Positions 1,049 through 41,635 of a DNA stretch of 42,105 nt are shown here, in pieces. The stretch is from Flavobacteriaceae bacterium (GTDB lineage Bacteria > Bacteroidota > Bacteroidia > Flavobacteriales > Flavobacteriaceae), in NCBI GenBank assembly GCA_029249225.1, contig JAQWHT010000044.1:1-42105 (forward strand), given 5' to 3'. Made by a program: the position numbers and the translations under genes. The notes below the pieces were generated by a model. That model was not told the origin of the DNA. It ran no database searches and saw nothing but the letters and a program-made list of their open reading frames with translations. How positions within the stretch are numbered: the first letter of the stretch is position 1; each line of letters opens with the position of its first letter.

Positions 1049-1813
1049 TCAAGAGTCTTTTTTATAATAGGAGAGTAAGACTCTCAAACCTCCCAATGAC
1101 AATACGCCTAAACAGCAGATCAAAACGGTTATAATATTGGGATAATTAGTATTAAAACCATCAATGCTCGTGTGCTTTCCATAAATTCCAGCATATGCCC
1201 AAATAACGACAAAAAGGTATGCAATCTGTTTAAAGTAAAAGAATTGACTAAAAGCGACTAAAACTCCAACAACCAAGATTATTATAGTCCAAACCTCTTC
1301 TGACATACCAAACCCCGTCCACTCATAACCTACCAAAACAGCAGTGAGATTTGCTATAGTAGCAATTGAAATCCAGCCAAAATATACTGTAAATGGAAGC
1401 TGAAGTGTTATTTTGTTTGTCCAATCAGGGGTGTTTTTTAAAAGCAGATTTATCTGTATAAGATTAATCAAAATTCCAAACATCAGAACTAGAGAAACCG
1501 TTAAGAACTCGTAGTGCCAAGCAAAGATCCAGCCGCTATTTAATAATGAATTTATAATGAAAAGTTTACTCAACTGTTCTGTCTTGTTGTCTATCGGTCT
1601 AATCAATACTCTGAATATAAAAATAAGGAGCAAGAGATAAATCACTCCCCAAATTGCAAAAGTAGCACCCTGAGGAGTGAATAAATTTTTCAGTTGATCC
1701 GATAGGTCTCCTGTTGTCTTACCGTTAATGGGGAGGATATTTGCAAGAGAATTAATTAGAATCATCTGAGCAAATCCTACCAGAGTAAAAAATTTAAGCC
1801 ACTTTTTTTTCAT
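1049..1813 (-). CDS. TspO/MBR-related tryptophan-rich membrane protein
   Basis: A 254-residue polytopic membrane protein with about seven hydrophobic segments. Its N-terminal region carries NSLANILPINGKTTG, then LFTPQGATFAIWGVIYLLLL, a signature of the bacterial TspO/MBR-related family, with conserved Trp and Tyr through the helices. Classical TspO proteins are about 160 residues with five helices and bind porphyrins, so this is the longer relative common in Firmicutes and Bacteroidota, whose function is not established. It starts at the ATG at 1813 and is divergent from the nitric oxide synthase gene, sharing a 258-bp intergenic region. A link through heme or oxidative stress is possible but is inference only. 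Confidence 0.75.
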   Translation of the reverse strand: MKKKWLKFFTLVGFAQMILINSLANILPINGKTTGDLSDQLKNLFTPQGATFAIWGVIYLLLLIFIFRVLIRPIDNKTEQLSKLFIINSLLNSGWIFAWHYEFLTVSLVLMFGILINLIQINLLLKNTPDWTNKITLQLPFTVYFGWISIATIANLTAVLVGYEWTGFGMSEEVWTIIILVVGVLVAFSQFFYFKQIAYLFVVIWAYAGIYGKHTSIDGFNTNYPNIITVLICCLGVLSLGGLRVLLSYYKKDS

Positions 1814-2071: not shown

Positions 2072-5000
2072 ATGGCTTTCTTTCCACTGCTTAATAACGA
2101 TAATCCTTCGTTACTCCTTCAATTGTCTAAAAAGGTCAATACCCAAGATAAAAAGGGGATACACATTATAGAGATCAACCAACTAGCTGAGGCTGAAAAA
2201 CAAGCTAAAGCTCTTATAAAAGCTCATGAGGAAGAGCATTTTGATTTACTGGTATGGATTGTTCCAGCATTAAAAGAGAGCAAAACTTTATCTAAAGCAT
2301 TAAGTGTTTTAGATCAAAGTGGTGCTCCAGTATCGATCATTTTTTACCCCCCTTTATTAGAGTTTATATTATATCAGGAACAACAGATTAAAACGGAACG
2401 ATTATTTTTATTTCCTTTTGAAAAACTTGCATGGAGCTCTTTAAAAGAAATTGAAAATGGGATTCACAAATCAGAAGCGAAAGATCGTAATTATTTGTCG
2501 GGTCAAGTATTTTCTCATAAAACCCTTTTACGAGCCTTAGAAAAAGGTTTAGAAGAAGCCAAAGAAAGCGATCGCTTTCTTTGGAATCAGTTTCAAAAAA
2601 TGGATCTCAATAAGGATGGATATTTAACAGCAGATGAAATATATCATCTCCTAGCTCAAATGGGATTTTCTAAAACAGATGTCTTATCCTTAGTGAGTGC
2701 AGCAGACCAAAATAAAGATGGAGTAATTGCTTTTGAGGAATTTCAATTTAATCTTGACCAGGACATCCAAAAAATGTTATCCAAAGTGGAAACACACATA
2801 AAAAATGGGATTTTTGAGAAAGACACATACAAACAATTTTTGAAAGAAGAGCACCAATTTTCAAGTGAGGCAGCTTCTGAAACCCTAAGATGGTTTGAAG
2901 AGACCGCAGCGTCTGTTGGCAATCAAGAAGAAGGGTCAGATCGAACAGTCTTGACGGAATGGATGTCAGAAAATGCATCACCATTTTTGGGTGTTGAGGT
3001 GCTTCCTGGAAAAGGATTATTCACAAGTAAAAAGAGTTATATAGAGGGCCAACAGGTTCAGCGCACCCAACTAATTTATCCTGACAACCAAAGTCTTTTT
3101 ATTGAACGAGGAGAAAAATCGATCAAAGTTTATTTTGATAAGACCGACACCATTGGTAAAGAAGAAACGATCAAAGGGGATGGGGATGAATTTACATACC
3201 GTTTATCCTTGAGTAATAATTTTATTCGTACGATTGAAGTTGAAGGAAAATGGCCTGAACTTCCAATAGCAATGGAAAAAATTCTTTTCCAGTCAGAGAT
3301 AAAGCCTTGGCAACAATCTGTTTTAAGGGAAATGGGAAGTTTCACATTAGAGGATCCTTCTGTAAATACACCAGATCGAATAGTTTGTAATTGTATGAGT
3401 TTATGTCAAAAAGACTTTCAACCATTTATTAAAGCAGGAATTAAAGAACTTTCTGCGCTAGTTGAAAAAACAAAAGCGACAACTATTTGTGGTGGTTGTG
3501 AACCGTTAGTAGAATCCCTCTGTGGCATCAACAGTATGTCATTGGCGGTGTTAGAGCGAAAGAGTGAAACAGAAAATAAAGACATAAAAATCTTTGCTAT
3601 AAAGCCTATAGAAGCCCAAGTGAAATCCTTTAAGCCTGGTCAGCATATTGTTGTTCAGGCGTATTTTCAAAGTCAGTGGGTTACAAGAGCGTATAGTTTA
3701 GTTTCTTCTGGCAATAATTCAACTCATTATGAGATTGGGGTTAAACGAGAGGAATTAGGAACCCTTTCTAGGTGGTTAAATGACCATGCGGACTCTAGTT
3801 CAATAATTCGTATTTCAGAACCTAAGGGGACTTATCATCTAGAAGATTCCCAAGATGAGATAGTCTTTTTCGCTGCGGGTATTGGGGTTACTCCAGCTCT
3901 TTCTATGTTGCGTACTCTAAGCTCTAAAAATGACCCTCGCTCTTTGTCATTAGATTGGTCTGTACCCTATGAGAAAAATTTTATTCTCAAAACGGAATTT
4001 GAGCGCTATGCGGATCTTCCTCAATACCAAATTAACTTTCGAGTTACCAAAAAAGAGGGGCGAATCACACAACCTTTTATAGAAAAAAAGTATTCTTACA
4101 CTCCTGGTAAATTCGCTTTCCTTTGTGGTCCTCAGGCCTTTATGGAGAACATCCAAACTCTTTTAAAACAAAATAACTGGCCTGAAGAAGCAATTAAAAT
4201 TGAACATTTTAATGCTCAAGTTGATCCAGAGGGAGAACTGCAACAAGTGGTAACTCAAGAGAAAATACACTGCAAAAGAGACGCTTCCAAAAATGAGGAT
4301 GAGATCATAGAATCTGACAGCTTTTTTATTTCTCCCATTGAAGACATCAAAAAAGAAGCTGTACTGTTTTTAAAACAGTTTTATGGAGAAAAAGGCCTCT
4401 CCGAAAAGGCATTAAATCTTAGAATTCAAGAGGTTGAAGAAGAGATAAATTCAAAAAGTACTTATACGCATACAATTGACGAACTCACATTTGCGTCTAG
4501 AGTTGCCTGGAGAAACAGTTCACGCTGTGTAGGACGGTATTTTTGGGGCAATATGATTGTTCGAGATTGTAGACATATAACAGACGAAAAAGCTGTTTAT
4601 GAAAGTTTAGTAGAGCACCTTCGATTGGGTATTAATGATGGGAACTTGCGTGCGGTCATCTCCATTTTTAGTCACAACAAACCGTTTATTAGACTTTATA
4701 ATCCACTTTTATTAATGTTTGCAGGTTATATTCAAGAGGACGGCAGTATTCTTGGAGATCAAGCAACAGTTGAGCTCACAAAAATTGCTCTTGAATTAGG
4801 CTGGAAACCAAAAAATCAACAAACCAATTTTGACCCCCTTCCTTTGATTTTGGAAATCGACGGAAACCCACCACAATGGTTTGAATGGCCTGATGACATT
4901 ACAAGAACAATCCCAATAGAACATCCAGAGTTAAAATGGTTTAAATCACTTGAATTAGAATGGTTTATGGTTCCTGCTGTAGCGGGGCTAGCATTAGATG

Positions 5001-5449
5001 CTGGTGGAATACAATATCGATGTGCTCCTTCTAACGGATTTTTTATCAGCACCGAAGTTGGAGCCCGGGACTTGGGGGATATATCCCGCTACAATATGTT
5101 GCCTGTTATTGCTGAAAAAATGGGCCTCGACATGAGCTCAAATGAAACTCACTGGAAAGATCGTGCAGTGGTTGAGTTGAATCTCGCAGTACAATGGTCG
5201 TACAGAAAACACAAGATTAGAATGTTAGATCACCATACAATAGTAGACTATTTTATGAAGTTTCATGGTGAAGAACTTGATGCAGGGAGACCAGTACATG
5301 CAGATTGGAAATGGATTGTTCCGCCAATTTCAGGGTCAACCGTTGAGGCGTTTCATATGGATTTAGTTAATAAAATTCTTAAGCCGAATTATTTTTATCA
5401 ACAAGACCCATGGAAATCTAACGATTGGAGAAGTCTTTCTAAAGTTTAG
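2072..5449 (+). CDS. nos: Self-sufficient nitric oxide synthase with EF-hands, [2Fe-2S] and FAD/NAD reductase modules
   Basis: 1125 residues; expected to oxidise L-arginine to citrulline and NO using NAD(P)H. Order of parts: an unrecognised alpha/beta-like region (1-150); two canonical EF-hand loops (D178-E189 and D212-E223); an unrecognised helical then beta-rich region (about 230-430); a BFD-like [2Fe-2S] site (C439-x-C441 and C473-x-x-C476); a ferredoxin-reductase-type FAD/NAD module (RAYSL at 539, GIGVTP at 603, CGPQ at 685); and the NOS oxygenase domain (about 740-1125). The last has the heme-thiolate signature AWRNSSRCVGR with C819, substrate glutamate E995 in STEVGARD, and a WIVPPISGS pterin/heme-edge motif with W1081. 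No flavodoxin-like FMN domain is seen. Reductase-first order with an iron-sulfur centre recalls the self-sufficient Sorangium cellulosum NOS. No signal peptide, so cytoplasmic. It stands alone, divergent from a TspO-like gene. Confidence 0.92.
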   Translation: MAFFPLLNNDNPSLLLQLSKKVNTQDKKGIHIIEINQLAEAEKQAKALIKAHEEEHFDLLVWIVPALKESKTLSKALSVLDQSGAPVSIIFYPPLLEFILYQEQQIKTERLFLFPFEKLAWSSLKEIENGIHKSEAKDRNYLSGQVFSHKTLLRALEKGLEEAKESDRFLWNQFQKMDLNKDGYLTADEIYHLLAQMGFSKTDVLSLVSAADQNKDGVIAFEEFQFNLDQDIQKMLSKVETHIKNGIFEKDTYKQFLKEEHQFSSEAASETLRWFEETAASVGNQEEGSDRTVLTEWMSENASPFLGVEVLPGKGLFTSKKSYIEGQQVQRTQLIYPDNQSLFIERGEKSIKVYFDKTDTIGKEETIKGDGDEFTYRLSLSNNFIRTIEVEGKWPELPIAMEKILFQSEIKPWQQSVLREMGSFTLEDPSVNTPDRIVCNCMSLCQKDFQPFIKAGIKELSALVEKTKATTICGGCEPLVESLCGINSMSLAVLERKSETENKDIKIFAIKPIEAQVKSFKPGQHIVVQAYFQSQWVTRAYSLVSSGNNSTHYEIGVKREELGTLSRWLNDHADSSSIIRISEPKGTYHLEDSQDEIVFFAAGIGVTPALSMLRTLSSKNDPRSLSLDWSVPYEKNFILKTEFERYADLPQYQINFRVTKKEGRITQPFIEKKYSYTPGKFAFLCGPQAFMENIQTLLKQNNWPEEAIKIEHFNAQVDPEGELQQVVTQEKIHCKRDASKNEDEIIESDSFFISPIEDIKKEAVLFLKQFYGEKGLSEKALNLRIQEVEEEINSKSTYTHTIDELTFASRVAWRNSSRCVGRYFWGNMIVRDCRHITDEKAVYESLVEHLRLGINDGNLRAVISIFSHNKPFIRLYNPLLLMFAGYIQEDGSILGDQATVELTKIALELGWKPKNQQTNFDPLPLILEIDGNPPQWFEWPDDITRTIPIEHPELKWFKSLELEWFMVPAVAGLALDAGGIQYRCAPSNGFFISTEVGARDLGDISRYNMLPVIAEKMGLDMSSNETHWKDRAVVELNLAVQWSYRKHKIRMLDHHTIVDYFMKFHGEELDAGRPVHADWKWIVPPISGSTVEAFHMDLVNKILKPNYFYQQDPWKSNDWRSLSKV

Positions 5450-38839: not shown

Positions 38840-41635
38840 ATGAAAAAAGGTTTATTATCAATTTTGGCAGCTTCGCTACTTGTAGTAGGATGTCAGGATT
38901 ATGACGATCAATTTGAAAAACTTAACAGCGACATTGCAGCATTAACTGCTTCAGTAGCTGGTTTGTCTCAGGTTCAGAGTGATCTTACTAGCCTTGCAGG
39001 TACAGTTTCTTCTTTAGCGACTACTGTAAATGGGTTAGGTTCTCAAATTGACACAGCTGTAGCTGATGGTCTTGCTGATATTACAGCAGACGTTGAAGCT
39101 ATTGAGGCTGCTGTTGCAAACGTTGCTTCTTCTGACGAAGTTGCTGCAATTTCTGATGCAGTTGAAACTGCTCAGACTGACTTGGATGAACTTCTTACAA
39201 ATTCTAATTTTTATACTGGAAATTTGACAATTAATAGTCCAGCTACTTTAGCTTTTGCTGAAACTCTAGGAGAAAAATTAGCAATTATTAACGGAACCGT
39301 TTCCATGACTCTTAGTCCTTTAATGGACGCAACAAAAGCACAAGCTGTTGTAGATAATATTGGAACTGTAGTTGGTGATTTTGGATTTTCTGCAACTACT
39401 TCTGCAGTTACTGCATTAACATTTGACAATATTGTTGGTACAGCTGATCTAAGTGTAGATCAAGCAGGACCTTATAGCTTTGCTGGTTTAACTTCAGCTG
39501 GAGCGATTACTTTAGGTACATCAAGTGCAGCTAAAGTGACTGTTGTAAATCTTGAAGCTTTAACCACTGTTACTTCAATACAAACAGGTACTGCGACTCA
39601 CACAATTAGTTTTGCTAAAGCGACAAACATCCACCTAACAGCACTTACTCGTTATGGAGCTAATTTAACACTCTTAGGTGATGATGATTCTACAATTTTG
39701 ATTGATAACCTTACTTCTACGGATGCTAACGGACTTGAGTCATCATTAGCCCTAGATATCACTGGAGCTGCATCGTTAGATTTCTCTAAAATAACTCAAG
39801 GATCTATTACAGCTACTGATATTGCTGCTGTAACAGGTGGAGCTGATTTTGATGGAGATATTACAATTACAAATGTTACCAAAGCTGTAATTCCTAATTA
39901 CACAGGTACATTAACTATAGGTGACGCAAATAAAAATAAATTAGAGTATCTTCATGTTATTGGTGCTTTGCCAACTAGAACAGTTGCTGCAACTACATAT
40001 CCTGTTTTAGATACTACAGATCAAACAGCACTTTCAACATTAATTGTTGACGGTACTTTAGGTGATGTTACCATCTCTGGAAATACTGATTTAGAAACTC
40101 TAACTTTTACTGCAAATGTTGATGCCCTTACTATTACAGGTGCATCTAACTTAGCTTCTGCGGAGTTAGCTGGAAAAGCTAAATCAATTGATGTTAATAC
40201 AAATGGTGACTTAGAAACGTTAACCGTTACTACTGCATTGCAAACAGCAAAAATTAATGCTGCTGCTGCTACTTCAGCTTCTTTATCTGTAACAAATAAT
40301 TCAGATCTTGAAAAATTAACTTCTTCTTATAATACGTTAGGTTCATTAACAGTTACTGATAACGCTAAACTAGCTGCAGTTGACTTTACTGGAACTGATG
40401 CAATAGGAACTACAGCTAATGTAGCAATAAACACTAATGCTTTTGAAGCTACAGTGGTTAACTCTTATTCTGCTTCTGACACTACAACAAGTGACTTAAC
40501 TGGATCAGTTTCTGATGAGTCTGGTATATCAACTTTAAAACCTTTTCTTCTAAAAGCTATTGCTGCACCAGGTACTTCTGGAGTGGTAGTAAAAATTGAT
40601 GAGGTTGAATTAACAACTTTTACTAGTGCTACTGATACAGATGGAACAGAATCAGACGTATTAAACTGGGAAATAGTTAATGTAACAGCAGCAGGAGCAG
40701 CTACAGGTGTAGTTACTGCAGCTAAATCTAAGATTGCTCAAGAATTTGATCTTACAACTGTAGGTGGTGCAAAACTCAAATTAGTTCATTCAAATCCTGC
40801 AAACGGAGTTGATACAACTATTATTGACATGACAACTTCTACTAATACTGATGCTTCAGTAATGAATACTAATCCAGCTTTAGCAGTTATTAATGATATT
40901 TTAACAGACAACGCAAAAGCGACTGCTACAGCTGTAGGGGTAACTCTTAATGCTTATGTAGGAGGTTCTTCTTCTGTAGATATCGAATTATTTGCAGATA
41001 ACGATTCTGCCACTGGAGTAGGAAGTGCAGCAACAGTATCTAATACCGTTTTAGCGGCTGATGATGTATTTGGCCTTACAATTGACGGACTTACTGTAAC
41101 ATCTACTGTAGGAGCTGCTGCTGGTTCAAATCTTGGAACAATTGCAGCTGCGATGGTTACAGCGTGGAATACCGCTACTTCAACAACTGCAACTAGCACT
41201 CTCTATACTGTTGCTTCACTTGGAGCTGTTATAACAGTATCAGCTAAACCAGCTGCAGGAAGTAGAGCAGACAGTGGTACAGTAGCAACTATTGTAACTA
41301 CTGGTTCTGACACTTCAACAATACCTGTTCTTGGTCATAAGATTGGATTCCTTAGAGGGTCTTCTGATGATAAAACGGCTTCAACCAATGTAATCGTTAC
41401 AATCGAATCTAATACTGCAGGTTTAGAAGGAGATACTATTGGTGCAGGAGCAACTACCTTTACAGGCTCTACTGGTGCAACAATGCTATCAGTTACAGGA
41501 ACTTATACTGCTGCGGCTTCAACAAATGTGTTTGAAGACGAAGCTTTTTCTGATGTAACTACTGCTTTAGATGCCGATGCTGGAACAGCAGGAGCAGCAG
41601 CTTCTACAACAAACTATTTACCTTGGGTAGACTAA
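38840..41635 (+). CDS. Large Ala/Thr-rich surface lipoprotein with coiled coil and beta-solenoid repeats
   Basis: 931 residues. A lipoprotein signal ends LLVVGC (Cys18) and is followed by QDYDDQF, an acidic start like the surface-export signal of Bacteroidota lipoproteins. Residues 20-125 form an alanine/leucine-rich coiled coil (LTASVAGLSQVQSDLTSLAG). Residues about 130-540 are a solenoid-like series of strands; from about 395 the units are 20-23 residues (DVTISGNTDLETLTF, LTITGASNLASAEL, IDVNTNGDLETLTV, LTVTDNAKLAAVDF), like a leucine-rich or beta-helical repeat. The last 370 residues are Thr/Ala-rich and adhesin-like. Cys is absent after Cys18. I recall paralogous families with this N-terminus in marine flavobacteria. 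Base composition is richer in GC than its neighbours. Probable surface structural or adhesive protein; function unproven. Driven by a sigma-54 promoter and ended by a strong terminator. Confidence 0.8.
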   Translation: MKKGLLSILAASLLVVGCQDYDDQFEKLNSDIAALTASVAGLSQVQSDLTSLAGTVSSLATTVNGLGSQIDTAVADGLADITADVEAIEAAVANVASSDEVAAISDAVETAQTDLDELLTNSNFYTGNLTINSPATLAFAETLGEKLAIINGTVSMTLSPLMDATKAQAVVDNIGTVVGDFGFSATTSAVTALTFDNIVGTADLSVDQAGPYSFAGLTSAGAITLGTSSAAKVTVVNLEALTTVTSIQTGTATHTISFAKATNIHLTALTRYGANLTLLGDDDSTILIDNLTSTDANGLESSLALDITGAASLDFSKITQGSITATDIAAVTGGADFDGDITITNVTKAVIPNYTGTLTIGDANKNKLEYLHVIGALPTRTVAATTYPVLDTTDQTALSTLIVDGTLGDVTISGNTDLETLTFTANVDALTITGASNLASAELAGKAKSIDVNTNGDLETLTVTTALQTAKINAAAATSASLSVTNNSDLEKLTSSYNTLGSLTVTDNAKLAAVDFTGTDAIGTTANVAINTNAFEATVVNSYSASDTTTSDLTGSVSDESGISTLKPFLLKAIAAPGTSGVVVKIDEVELTTFTSATDTDGTESDVLNWEIVNVTAAGAATGVVTAAKSKIAQEFDLTTVGGAKLKLVHSNPANGVDTTIIDMTTSTNTDASVMNTNPALAVINDILTDNAKATATAVGVTLNAYVGGSSSVDIELFADNDSATGVGSAATVSNTVLAADDVFGLTIDGLTVTSTVGAAAGSNLGTIAAAMVTAWNTATSTTATSTLYTVASLGAVITVSAKPAAGSRADSGTVATIVTTGSDTSTIPVLGHKIGFLRGSSDDKTASTNVIVTIESNTAGLEGDTIGAGATTFTGSTGATMLSVTGTYTAAASTNVFEDEAFSDVTTALDADAGTAGAAASTTNYLPWVD

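Follow-up and report, generated by a model that had tools for sequence, protein, structure and literature searches.

The nitric oxide synthase (NOS) of Sorangium cellulosum, scNOS, was reportedly active in a 2009 paper. Its inverted domain order and 2Fe2S domain (PMC3701330) and its two EF-hands and BFD domain (PMC7400543) are described in the literature. The latter source also notes two EF-hand motifs in the NOS of Microcoleus as well as Sorangium, and reverse-order cyanobacterial NOS is already in print for Microcoleus and Crinalium. Here we describe a NOS gene of this type in a flavobacterium, at positions 2072-5449 of the forward strand of a 42,105-nucleotide contig from a Flavobacteriaceae bacterium (JAQWHT010000044.1, the whole of which is called the window). 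The open reading frame (ORF) starts with ATG and runs through 1125 codons with no internal stop, and the gene is carried by four of 38 genomes of the genus. We consider it likely that its product is a self-sufficient, NAD(P)H-driven heme monooxygenase of the scNOS type that is controlled by Ca2+ and releases nitric oxide (NO) from a guanidine bound at E995.

The flavobacterial protein has the same domains as scNOS in the same order over about residues 32-1116, with 34-35% identity. It also shares its full architecture with the cyanobacterial reverse-order enzymes of Cylindrospermum, Pleurocapsa and two metagenome-assembled genomes (MAGs), although overall identity is 35-37% for the three that were aligned. 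Globin-type multidomain NOS, such as Synechococcus SyNOS and the Spirosoma enzyme, is likewise self-sufficient but has a globin-oxygenase-flavodoxin-FAD order (by Pfam on L035), lacks a BFD domain and falls in a separate clade. Animal NOS resembles the flavobacterial protein in its oxygenase domain, in its heme and pterin residues and, as an analogy, in calcium control, whereas PMC3701330 gives it the opposite order, a reductase with flavin mononucleotide (FMN) and flavin adenine dinucleotide (FAD), and a separate calmodulin. The architecture is already known from Sorangium and cyanobacteria, according to PMC3701330 and PMC7400543. What appears to be new is a putative NmrA-like domain into which the EF-hand pair is inserted, together with canonical Ca2+ loops and an altered substrate pocket in all four flavobacterial proteins. 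Neither an NmrA-like scaffold nor an altered pocket was found in the literature searched, and a search pairing 'nitric oxide synthase oxygenase' with 'Flavobacteriaceae' found no paper.

Domain order and proposed electron path

Reading from the N-terminus, an EF-hand pair is followed by a BFD-type [2Fe-2S] domain, then by an FAD/NAD(P) reductase and finally by a complete NO synthase oxygenase domain. The oxygenase domain matched Pfam NO_synthase (PF02898) with an E-value of 3.9e-137 over profile positions 3-362 of 362. The EF-hand pair matched EF-hand_7 (residues 173-225, E 4.7e-10) and the reductase matched FAD_binding_6 (E 6.1e-10) and NAD_binding_1 (E 6.5e-9), while no Pfam match to a flavodoxin (FMN) domain was obtained in the 1125 residues. 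Fer2_BFD matched residues 437-483 with an E-value of 5.3e-5 and 23.9 bits, under the 26-bit cut-off. The BFD-type assignment, left open by Pfam alone, could be made because a profile of 12 homologues matched solved Bfd (bacterioferritin-associated) ferredoxins (best E 4.3e-7), Foldseek superimposed the modelled domain on 4e6k/6e6r with a root-mean-square deviation (rmsd) of 1.4 A across 50 columns (probability 1.00, E 0.15-0.16), and C439, C441, C473 and C476 were invariant in 12 of 12 aligned proteins. Collectively, these results secure the prediction of a [2Fe-2S] domain with four cysteine ligands.

The original prediction had placed a reductase N-terminal to the oxygenase in a single chain and had likened the protein to Sorangium NOS. 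The ORF and the order of the Pfam domains bear out the first claim, and full-length homology and a shared clade with 100/100 support bear out the second. Its expectation that the C-terminal residues belong to the NOS oxygenase family agrees with the NO_synthase match. The heme cysteine and substrate glutamate that it called intact, C819 and E995, align with C194 and E371 of iNOS, and its WIVPP motif lies at residues 1081-1085. An EF-hand had been named only among the domains to be checked; the pair is present, within the N-terminal 300 residues, which look NmrA-like. An animal-type NOS was excluded by the reversed domain order and the absence of FMN-domain matches (no search was made for a calmodulin-binding linker), and an oxygenase-only NOS with an unrelated upstream ORF was excluded by the single uninterrupted frame and the full-length homologues. 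The sequence itself shows the order of the domains, intact residues for the cofactors, canonical Ca2+ loops and homology to Sorangium NOS, and by the same measure the protein is a one-piece NOS-type enzyme with its own reductase and a member of the scNOS type.

In the scheme that we favour, NAD(P)H would reduce the FAD of the FNR-like module, and electrons would move on from FAD by way of the BFD-type [2Fe-2S] cluster to the thiolate heme in the C-terminal oxygenase, a path that we infer from the domain content and from scNOS. With O2 and tetrahydropterin or folate, the guanidine bound at E995 would then presumably be oxidised and NO released. As the conserved loops suggest, Ca2+ would probably act in cis, binding the EF-hands of the NmrA-like scaffold and gating this electron flow as calmodulin does in animal NOS.

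The N-terminal scaffold and its EF-hand pair

AlphaFold2 modelled residues 1-438 from 12 sequences with a mean predicted local distance difference test score (pLDDT) of 81.7 and a predicted template modelling score (pTM) of 0.75. The first Foldseek match to this model was 3e48 (E 1.8e-3, probability 1.00, 318 columns), which is labelled as a nucleoside-diphosphate-sugar epimerase and which we take to be NmrA-like; EF-hand proteins came next in the list. The superposition on 3e48 was poor (rmsd 11.2, TM 0.32/0.47), as would be expected if an insert splits the match. No Foldseek match reached an E-value of 0.001 or better for the N-terminal model, for the beta-rich domain that follows the scaffold or for the BFD-like domain. 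We also compared the N-terminal profile, with the EF-hand columns removed, with eight proteins passing the Pfam NmrA cut-off. The hhalign probability was 94.3 (E 1e-7, 155 columns), whereas none of three other domains of the protein scored above 1.1, no control among 30 with shuffled columns above 0.4, and a reversed control no more than 0.1. Pfam NmrA itself gave weak matches below its cut-off in three of 12 members (best E 0.003), and no NAD(P)-binding GxxGxxG loop was seen by eye in the window protein (P0001) or in the other rows of the N-terminal alignment. Together, the model and the profile comparison suggest that the N-terminal ~300 residues look like a degenerate NmrA-like short-chain dehydrogenase/reductase (SDR) that lacks the glycine loop and carries an inserted EF-hand pair.

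For residues 301-434, Foldseek returned PYROXD1, toluene dioxygenase reductase and AIF at E-values of 0.05-0.4 among lipocalins and other unrelated matches, hinting weakly at a pyridine-nucleotide-oxidoreductase C-terminal domain. A conserved SDR-NOS operon was considered as the source of the N-terminus and found no support: the SDRs beside two plasmid NOS genes best fit other SDR families, though one of the two also reaches NmrA at 2e-11.

The profile of residues 1-438 and their homologues matched calmodulin structures. When the 13,684 ORF residues of the window were scanned with a loop pattern, both predicted Ca2+ loops and one other site were returned. Both loops are canonical even in L153, the most distant of the four flavobacterial proteins, in which the EF stretch is 46-51% identical to the other three and the flanking NmrA-like parts are 21-30% identical. 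Canonical loops are likewise found in the four cyanobacterial reverse-order enzymes, whereas loop 1 of Sorangium NOS is without Gly6. Control of NO synthesis by Ca2+ is usually seen as eukaryotic and as requiring calmodulin, and a built-in EF-hand pair would offer a bacterial, single-polypeptide test of this logic. No test of Ca2+ dependence for the scNOS type was found in the literature searched, the coverage of which mostly leaves out subscription journals. For SyNOS, a different type of NOS, a Ca2+ requirement is reported (PMC9500659), after an earlier suggestion of Ca2+ independence (PMC6104048).

Table 1. Positions in the window of the NOS gene and of its predicted domains and sites
Feature	Residues	Position	Strand	Basis
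Coding sequence, single-chain scNOS-type NOS, 1125 aa (P0001)		2072..5449	+	ORF, Pfam; carried by 4/38 genomes of the genus
NmrA-like (atypical SDR) domain, first part, without first Rossmann strand and glycine loop	14-163	2111..2560	+	AlphaFold2, Foldseek, hhalign
EF-hand pair inserted in NmrA-like domain	164-232	2561..2767	+	Pfam EF-hand_7, profile search
Ca2+ loop 1 (predicted)	178-189	2603..2638	+	Canonical in 4/4 flavobacterial and 4/4 cyanobacterial proteins examined
Ca2+ loop 2 (predicted)	212-223	2705..2740	+	Canonical in 4/4 flavobacterial and 4/4 cyanobacterial proteins examined
NmrA-like domain, C-terminal helical part (less certain)	240-300	2789..2971	+	AlphaFold2 model, alignment reading; hhalign local match stopped before most of this part
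Beta-rich domain, weakly like pyridine-nucleotide oxidoreductase C-terminal domain	301-434	2972..3373	+	AlphaFold2, Foldseek
BFD-like [2Fe-2S] domain; predicted ligands C439, C441, C473, C476	435-486	3374..3529	+	Pfam (below cut-off), homologue profile, Foldseek, invariant Cys
FAD-binding domain	498-588	3563..3835	+	Pfam FAD_binding_6
NAD(P)-binding domain	600-695	3869..4156	+	Pfam NAD_binding_1
NO synthase oxygenase domain	757-1115	4340..5416	+	Pfam, alignment to iNOS

The oxygenase pocket and its likely substrate

The closest solved structures to the oxygenase domain are mouse iNOS and, just behind it, the bacterial NOS 2flq. Pocket residues are given in iNOS numbering, to which 221 is added for nNOS. 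W188, C194, V346, N364, E371, R375, D376, R382, W455, W457, F470 and Y485 are kept, so that the heme ligand C819, the guanidinium-binding E995 and the pterin-site residues R999, W1079, W1081 and F1094 are all present, as are N988, D1000 and R1006 of the amino-acid-end site (iNOS N364, D376 and R382). The position of iNOS 346 is isoleucine in 54, valine in 40 and leucine in six of 100 rows. The flavobacterial V970 corresponds to the valine of animal NOS, and PMC6120233 states that most bacterial NOS have isoleucine here and release NO much more slowly.

Six pocket residues are replaced: Q257L (L879), R260M (M882), Y341F (F965), F363S (S987), W366F (F990) and Y367F (F991). All six changes are common to the four flavobacterial proteins. 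None of the other 96 rows (95 loci and iNOS) has more than three, the comparison covering 98 of 128 loci, which are best matches to the 1125-aa protein rather than a census. Three of six were found in cyanobacterial L051, L052, L057 and L063 (Q257L, Y341F, W366F), and in L061 (Y341F, F363S, W366F). Singly, the changes occur elsewhere in 5/95 (Q257L), 2/95 (R260M), 11/96 (Y341F), 5/96 (F363S), 15/96 (W366F) and 12/96 rows (Y367F). W366F is general among the scNOS-type relatives, occurring in all 11 (L050-L060), and is therefore not distinctive of the flavobacterial branch; Y367F is also found in globin-type enzymes. Sorangium NOS shares F at 366 but keeps Q257, R260, F363 and Y367 and has H at 341. 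The cyanobacterial enzymes share F366, and three of them Q257L and Y341F, but they keep R260, F363 and Y367. From its scNOS-type relatives, the flavobacterial branch is thus set apart by R260M, F363S and Y367F and, compared to Sorangium, also by Q257L and Y341F. When the columns were restricted to those with at least 70% conservation in the other proteins, uniform changes were enriched in the pocket (6/10, compared to 21/125 elsewhere; one-sided Fisher p 0.0045), and the same held at 80% conservation (5/9 and 14/103, p 0.0069). Two caveats apply to this test: the list of pocket positions was brought in once the first changes were already in view, and one of the six changed columns is 376, where the flavobacterial proteins have D as in iNOS.

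Crystal-structure work has assigned Q257, R260 and Y341 to roles at the amino-acid end of arginine. This is partly backed by PMC6120233 and PMC10343299. According to the former, the hydroxyl of nNOS Tyr588 (iNOS Y367) forms a hydrogen bond with the alpha-COOH of arginine, its mutation strongly changes substrate binding and oxidation, and alkyl-guanidines that are not amino acids can be oxidised by mammalian NOS; the latter states that the alpha-carboxylate is bound by Asp597 or by the corresponding Asn. One serious alternative, which we hold tentatively, is a switch of substrate: the flavobacterial enzymes would oxidise a guanidine without a free alpha-amino-acid end (agmatine-like, N-alkyl or acylated), and NO would come from it or would not be the main product. 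The joint occurrence of the six changes, their enrichment in the pocket, the Tyr588 bond and the alkyl-guanidine oxidation all favour such a switch, as does the long stem (0.67 changes per column) that leads to the flavobacterial pair in the oxygenase tree. On the other side, N988, D1000 and R1006 are kept, each change is seen singly elsewhere, W366F is general and three cyanobacterial proteins combine it with Q257L and Y341F, and the enrichment carries the limits given above. If the substrate is indeed not arginine, part of the bacterial 'NO synthase' annotation would need a new function. With the guanidinium, heme and pterin sites kept and the amino-acid end rebuilt, the branch is a natural experiment in NOS substrate recognition.

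Several observations weigh against the reading that we prefer, a Ca2+-controlled enzyme that releases NO from a guanidine at E995. The replaced amino-acid-end residues speak against tight binding of free L-arginine as the substrate. All four Sorangium proteins are without Gly6 in loop 1, and two of them also depart at one position of loop 2; L058 (Spartobacteria) and L060 (Myxococcota) have degenerate EF-hands, with no intact loop 2 in the former and no intact loop 1 in the latter, and L061 and L062 have none. The wider scNOS type therefore does not require Ca2+ binding. Furthermore, no neighbouring gene is common to all four congeners or indicates a function. The degenerate EF-hands, and homology with Sorangium NOS, which PMC3701330 cites as a characterised NOS, would fit a scNOS-type enzyme of the ordinary, arginine-dependent kind, its EF-hands being structural relics and its altered pocket the result of tolerated drift. 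We regard this as rather unlikely, since all four flavobacterial proteins retain the EF ligands and the six pocket residues, even though the sequence around the EF-hands has drifted. The pocket argument against drift is the weaker of the two, since the oxygenase as a whole is also well conserved.

On the preferred reading, L-arginine remains more likely than any other single substrate, though most of the expected amino-acid-end side chains are replaced. The original prediction had the enzyme make NO directly from arginine. Although the heme, guanidinium and pterin residues are retained, several side chains at the amino-acid end have given way to hydrophobic or small ones in all four flavobacterial proteins, leaving NO from arginine plausible rather than a safe default. 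A calcium-switched guanidine oxygenase, in which the NmrA-like/EF-hand module would turn on electron flow with Ca2+ and a carboxylate-free guanidine instead of L-arginine would yield NO or another N-oxide, combines both novelties and seems to us improbable.

A different set of pocket changes (R260L, Y341F, F363S and W366I/V/F) was observed in L043, L073, L083, L088 and L061, a Rhizobium/Roseobacter/Sulfopaludibacter/Rhodobacteraceae group in the same clade as the flavobacterial NOS. The pterin-site Arg375 is replaced by Phe in four of these and by Ile in one, and F470 by Trp.

Occurrence, relatives and neighbouring genes

The genus is placed in the Flavobacteriaceae because one of its four NOS contigs is letter-for-letter identical to a public Flavobacteriaceae MAG contig (L049), and the occurrence of the gene in four of 38 genomes of the genus supports the earlier proposal of a NOS in a flavobacterium. 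The window's own genome contains a single NOS oxygenase match. Across 397 sampled genomes of the same family, with at most two candidates scored per genome, this genome alone gave a full-length match among the matches listed; the next ones (E 8e-22 and weaker) covered only the reductase part. Among 395 genomes of the phylum, 12 had a NOS oxygenase match, none of the others having the reverse-order architecture as judged by open-frame length. One other was multidomain by this measure and is of the globin type by Pfam (1553-aa frame, G631), and a 797-aa frame in G758 was rejected as a fused NOS since a run of N joins two genes. Such rarity might suggest an assembly artefact, in which a flavobacterial contig was wrongly fused to a foreign NOS gene, or else a gene that is dead. 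We give this hardly any credence. Intact frames of 1130-1170 aa lie in differing surroundings in the four genomes, the cofactor residues are intact, and the GC content of the gene (0.372; 0.291 at third codon positions, GC3) is close to that of most neighbouring genes measured. Contamination or a chimera was excluded by the same occurrence in the genus, the identical L049 contig and the neighbour-like GC. The four flavobacterial proteins are 79-92% identical in the oxygenase domain compared to 55-86% over the whole protein, as would be expected if the enzyme is functional.

A scan of 84,980 genomes yielded 186 relatives, and the analysis used the best 80 of these 186. Ten of these 80 were near-full-length: the Flavobacteriaceae MAG L049 (72% identity to the 1125-aa protein), four cyanobacterial proteins (Pleurocapsa, Cylindrospermum and two other MAGs), four Sorangium cellulosum strains and a Spartobacteria MAG. 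The N-terminus is degenerate in L060 (Myxococcota, 1185 aa), the 689-aa L061 (Rhodobacteraceae) begins at the [2Fe-2S] domain and L059 ends at a contig edge. An oxygenase tree was built from 61 of 100 rows, 39 having been removed by hand (mostly near-copies, also short rows and two window copies). The window protein and L049 were sisters (100/100) on the long stem noted above. They fell in a 17-row clade (100/100) with the Sorangium, cyanobacterial and Spartobacteria proteins, L060 and the Rhizobium/Roseobacter/Sulfopaludibacter/Rhodobacteraceae group, in which L061 is the only fused member. The order of branching inside this clade does not point to a source for the flavobacterial gene.

A plasmid origin was rejected, as none of 1087 matching plasmid records reached 80% coverage, and so was a phage origin, as none of 14 matching phage records did (residues 1-745 searched). 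One search of IMG/VR was empty and another returned three loci that match the oxygenase only, on putative viral contigs of 103-165 kb (L046, L047 and L048).

Two relatives showed further features. The cyanobacterial UBA8803 homologue at L057:5695-9026 is split into two frames by a frameshift. L062:5254-8190, from a Planctomycetaceae MAG, joins a possible cNMP-binding domain to a BFD [2Fe-2S] domain, a reductase-like part and a NOS oxygenase. The cNMP-binding match had an E-value of 4.3e-5 and 23.8 bits (cut-off 27.5), and its best solved-structure match was 2pqq at 0.024. The L062 oxygenase lies outside the scNOS clade on a long branch of unsure placement, and this protein may be a separate fusion.

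The neighbours scanned in the window are carbohydrate and peptide genes or of unknown function. A 254-aa ORF with hydrophobic stretches (1049-1813, reverse strand) is divergent from the NOS gene and, at the limits used, matched nothing in Pfam or NCBIfam. A related pair of secreted-protein genes (TSP_3/sorting-domain, fn3-like; 56-59% identical) stands beside the NOS gene at L152:4817-6441 and L153:112-5933, on different sides and strands of it, and is missing from the window and from L154. Further along the window, a 931-aa ORF (38840-41635, forward strand) has a GC3 of 0.13, compared to 0.295-0.316 in six other genes of similar overall GC.

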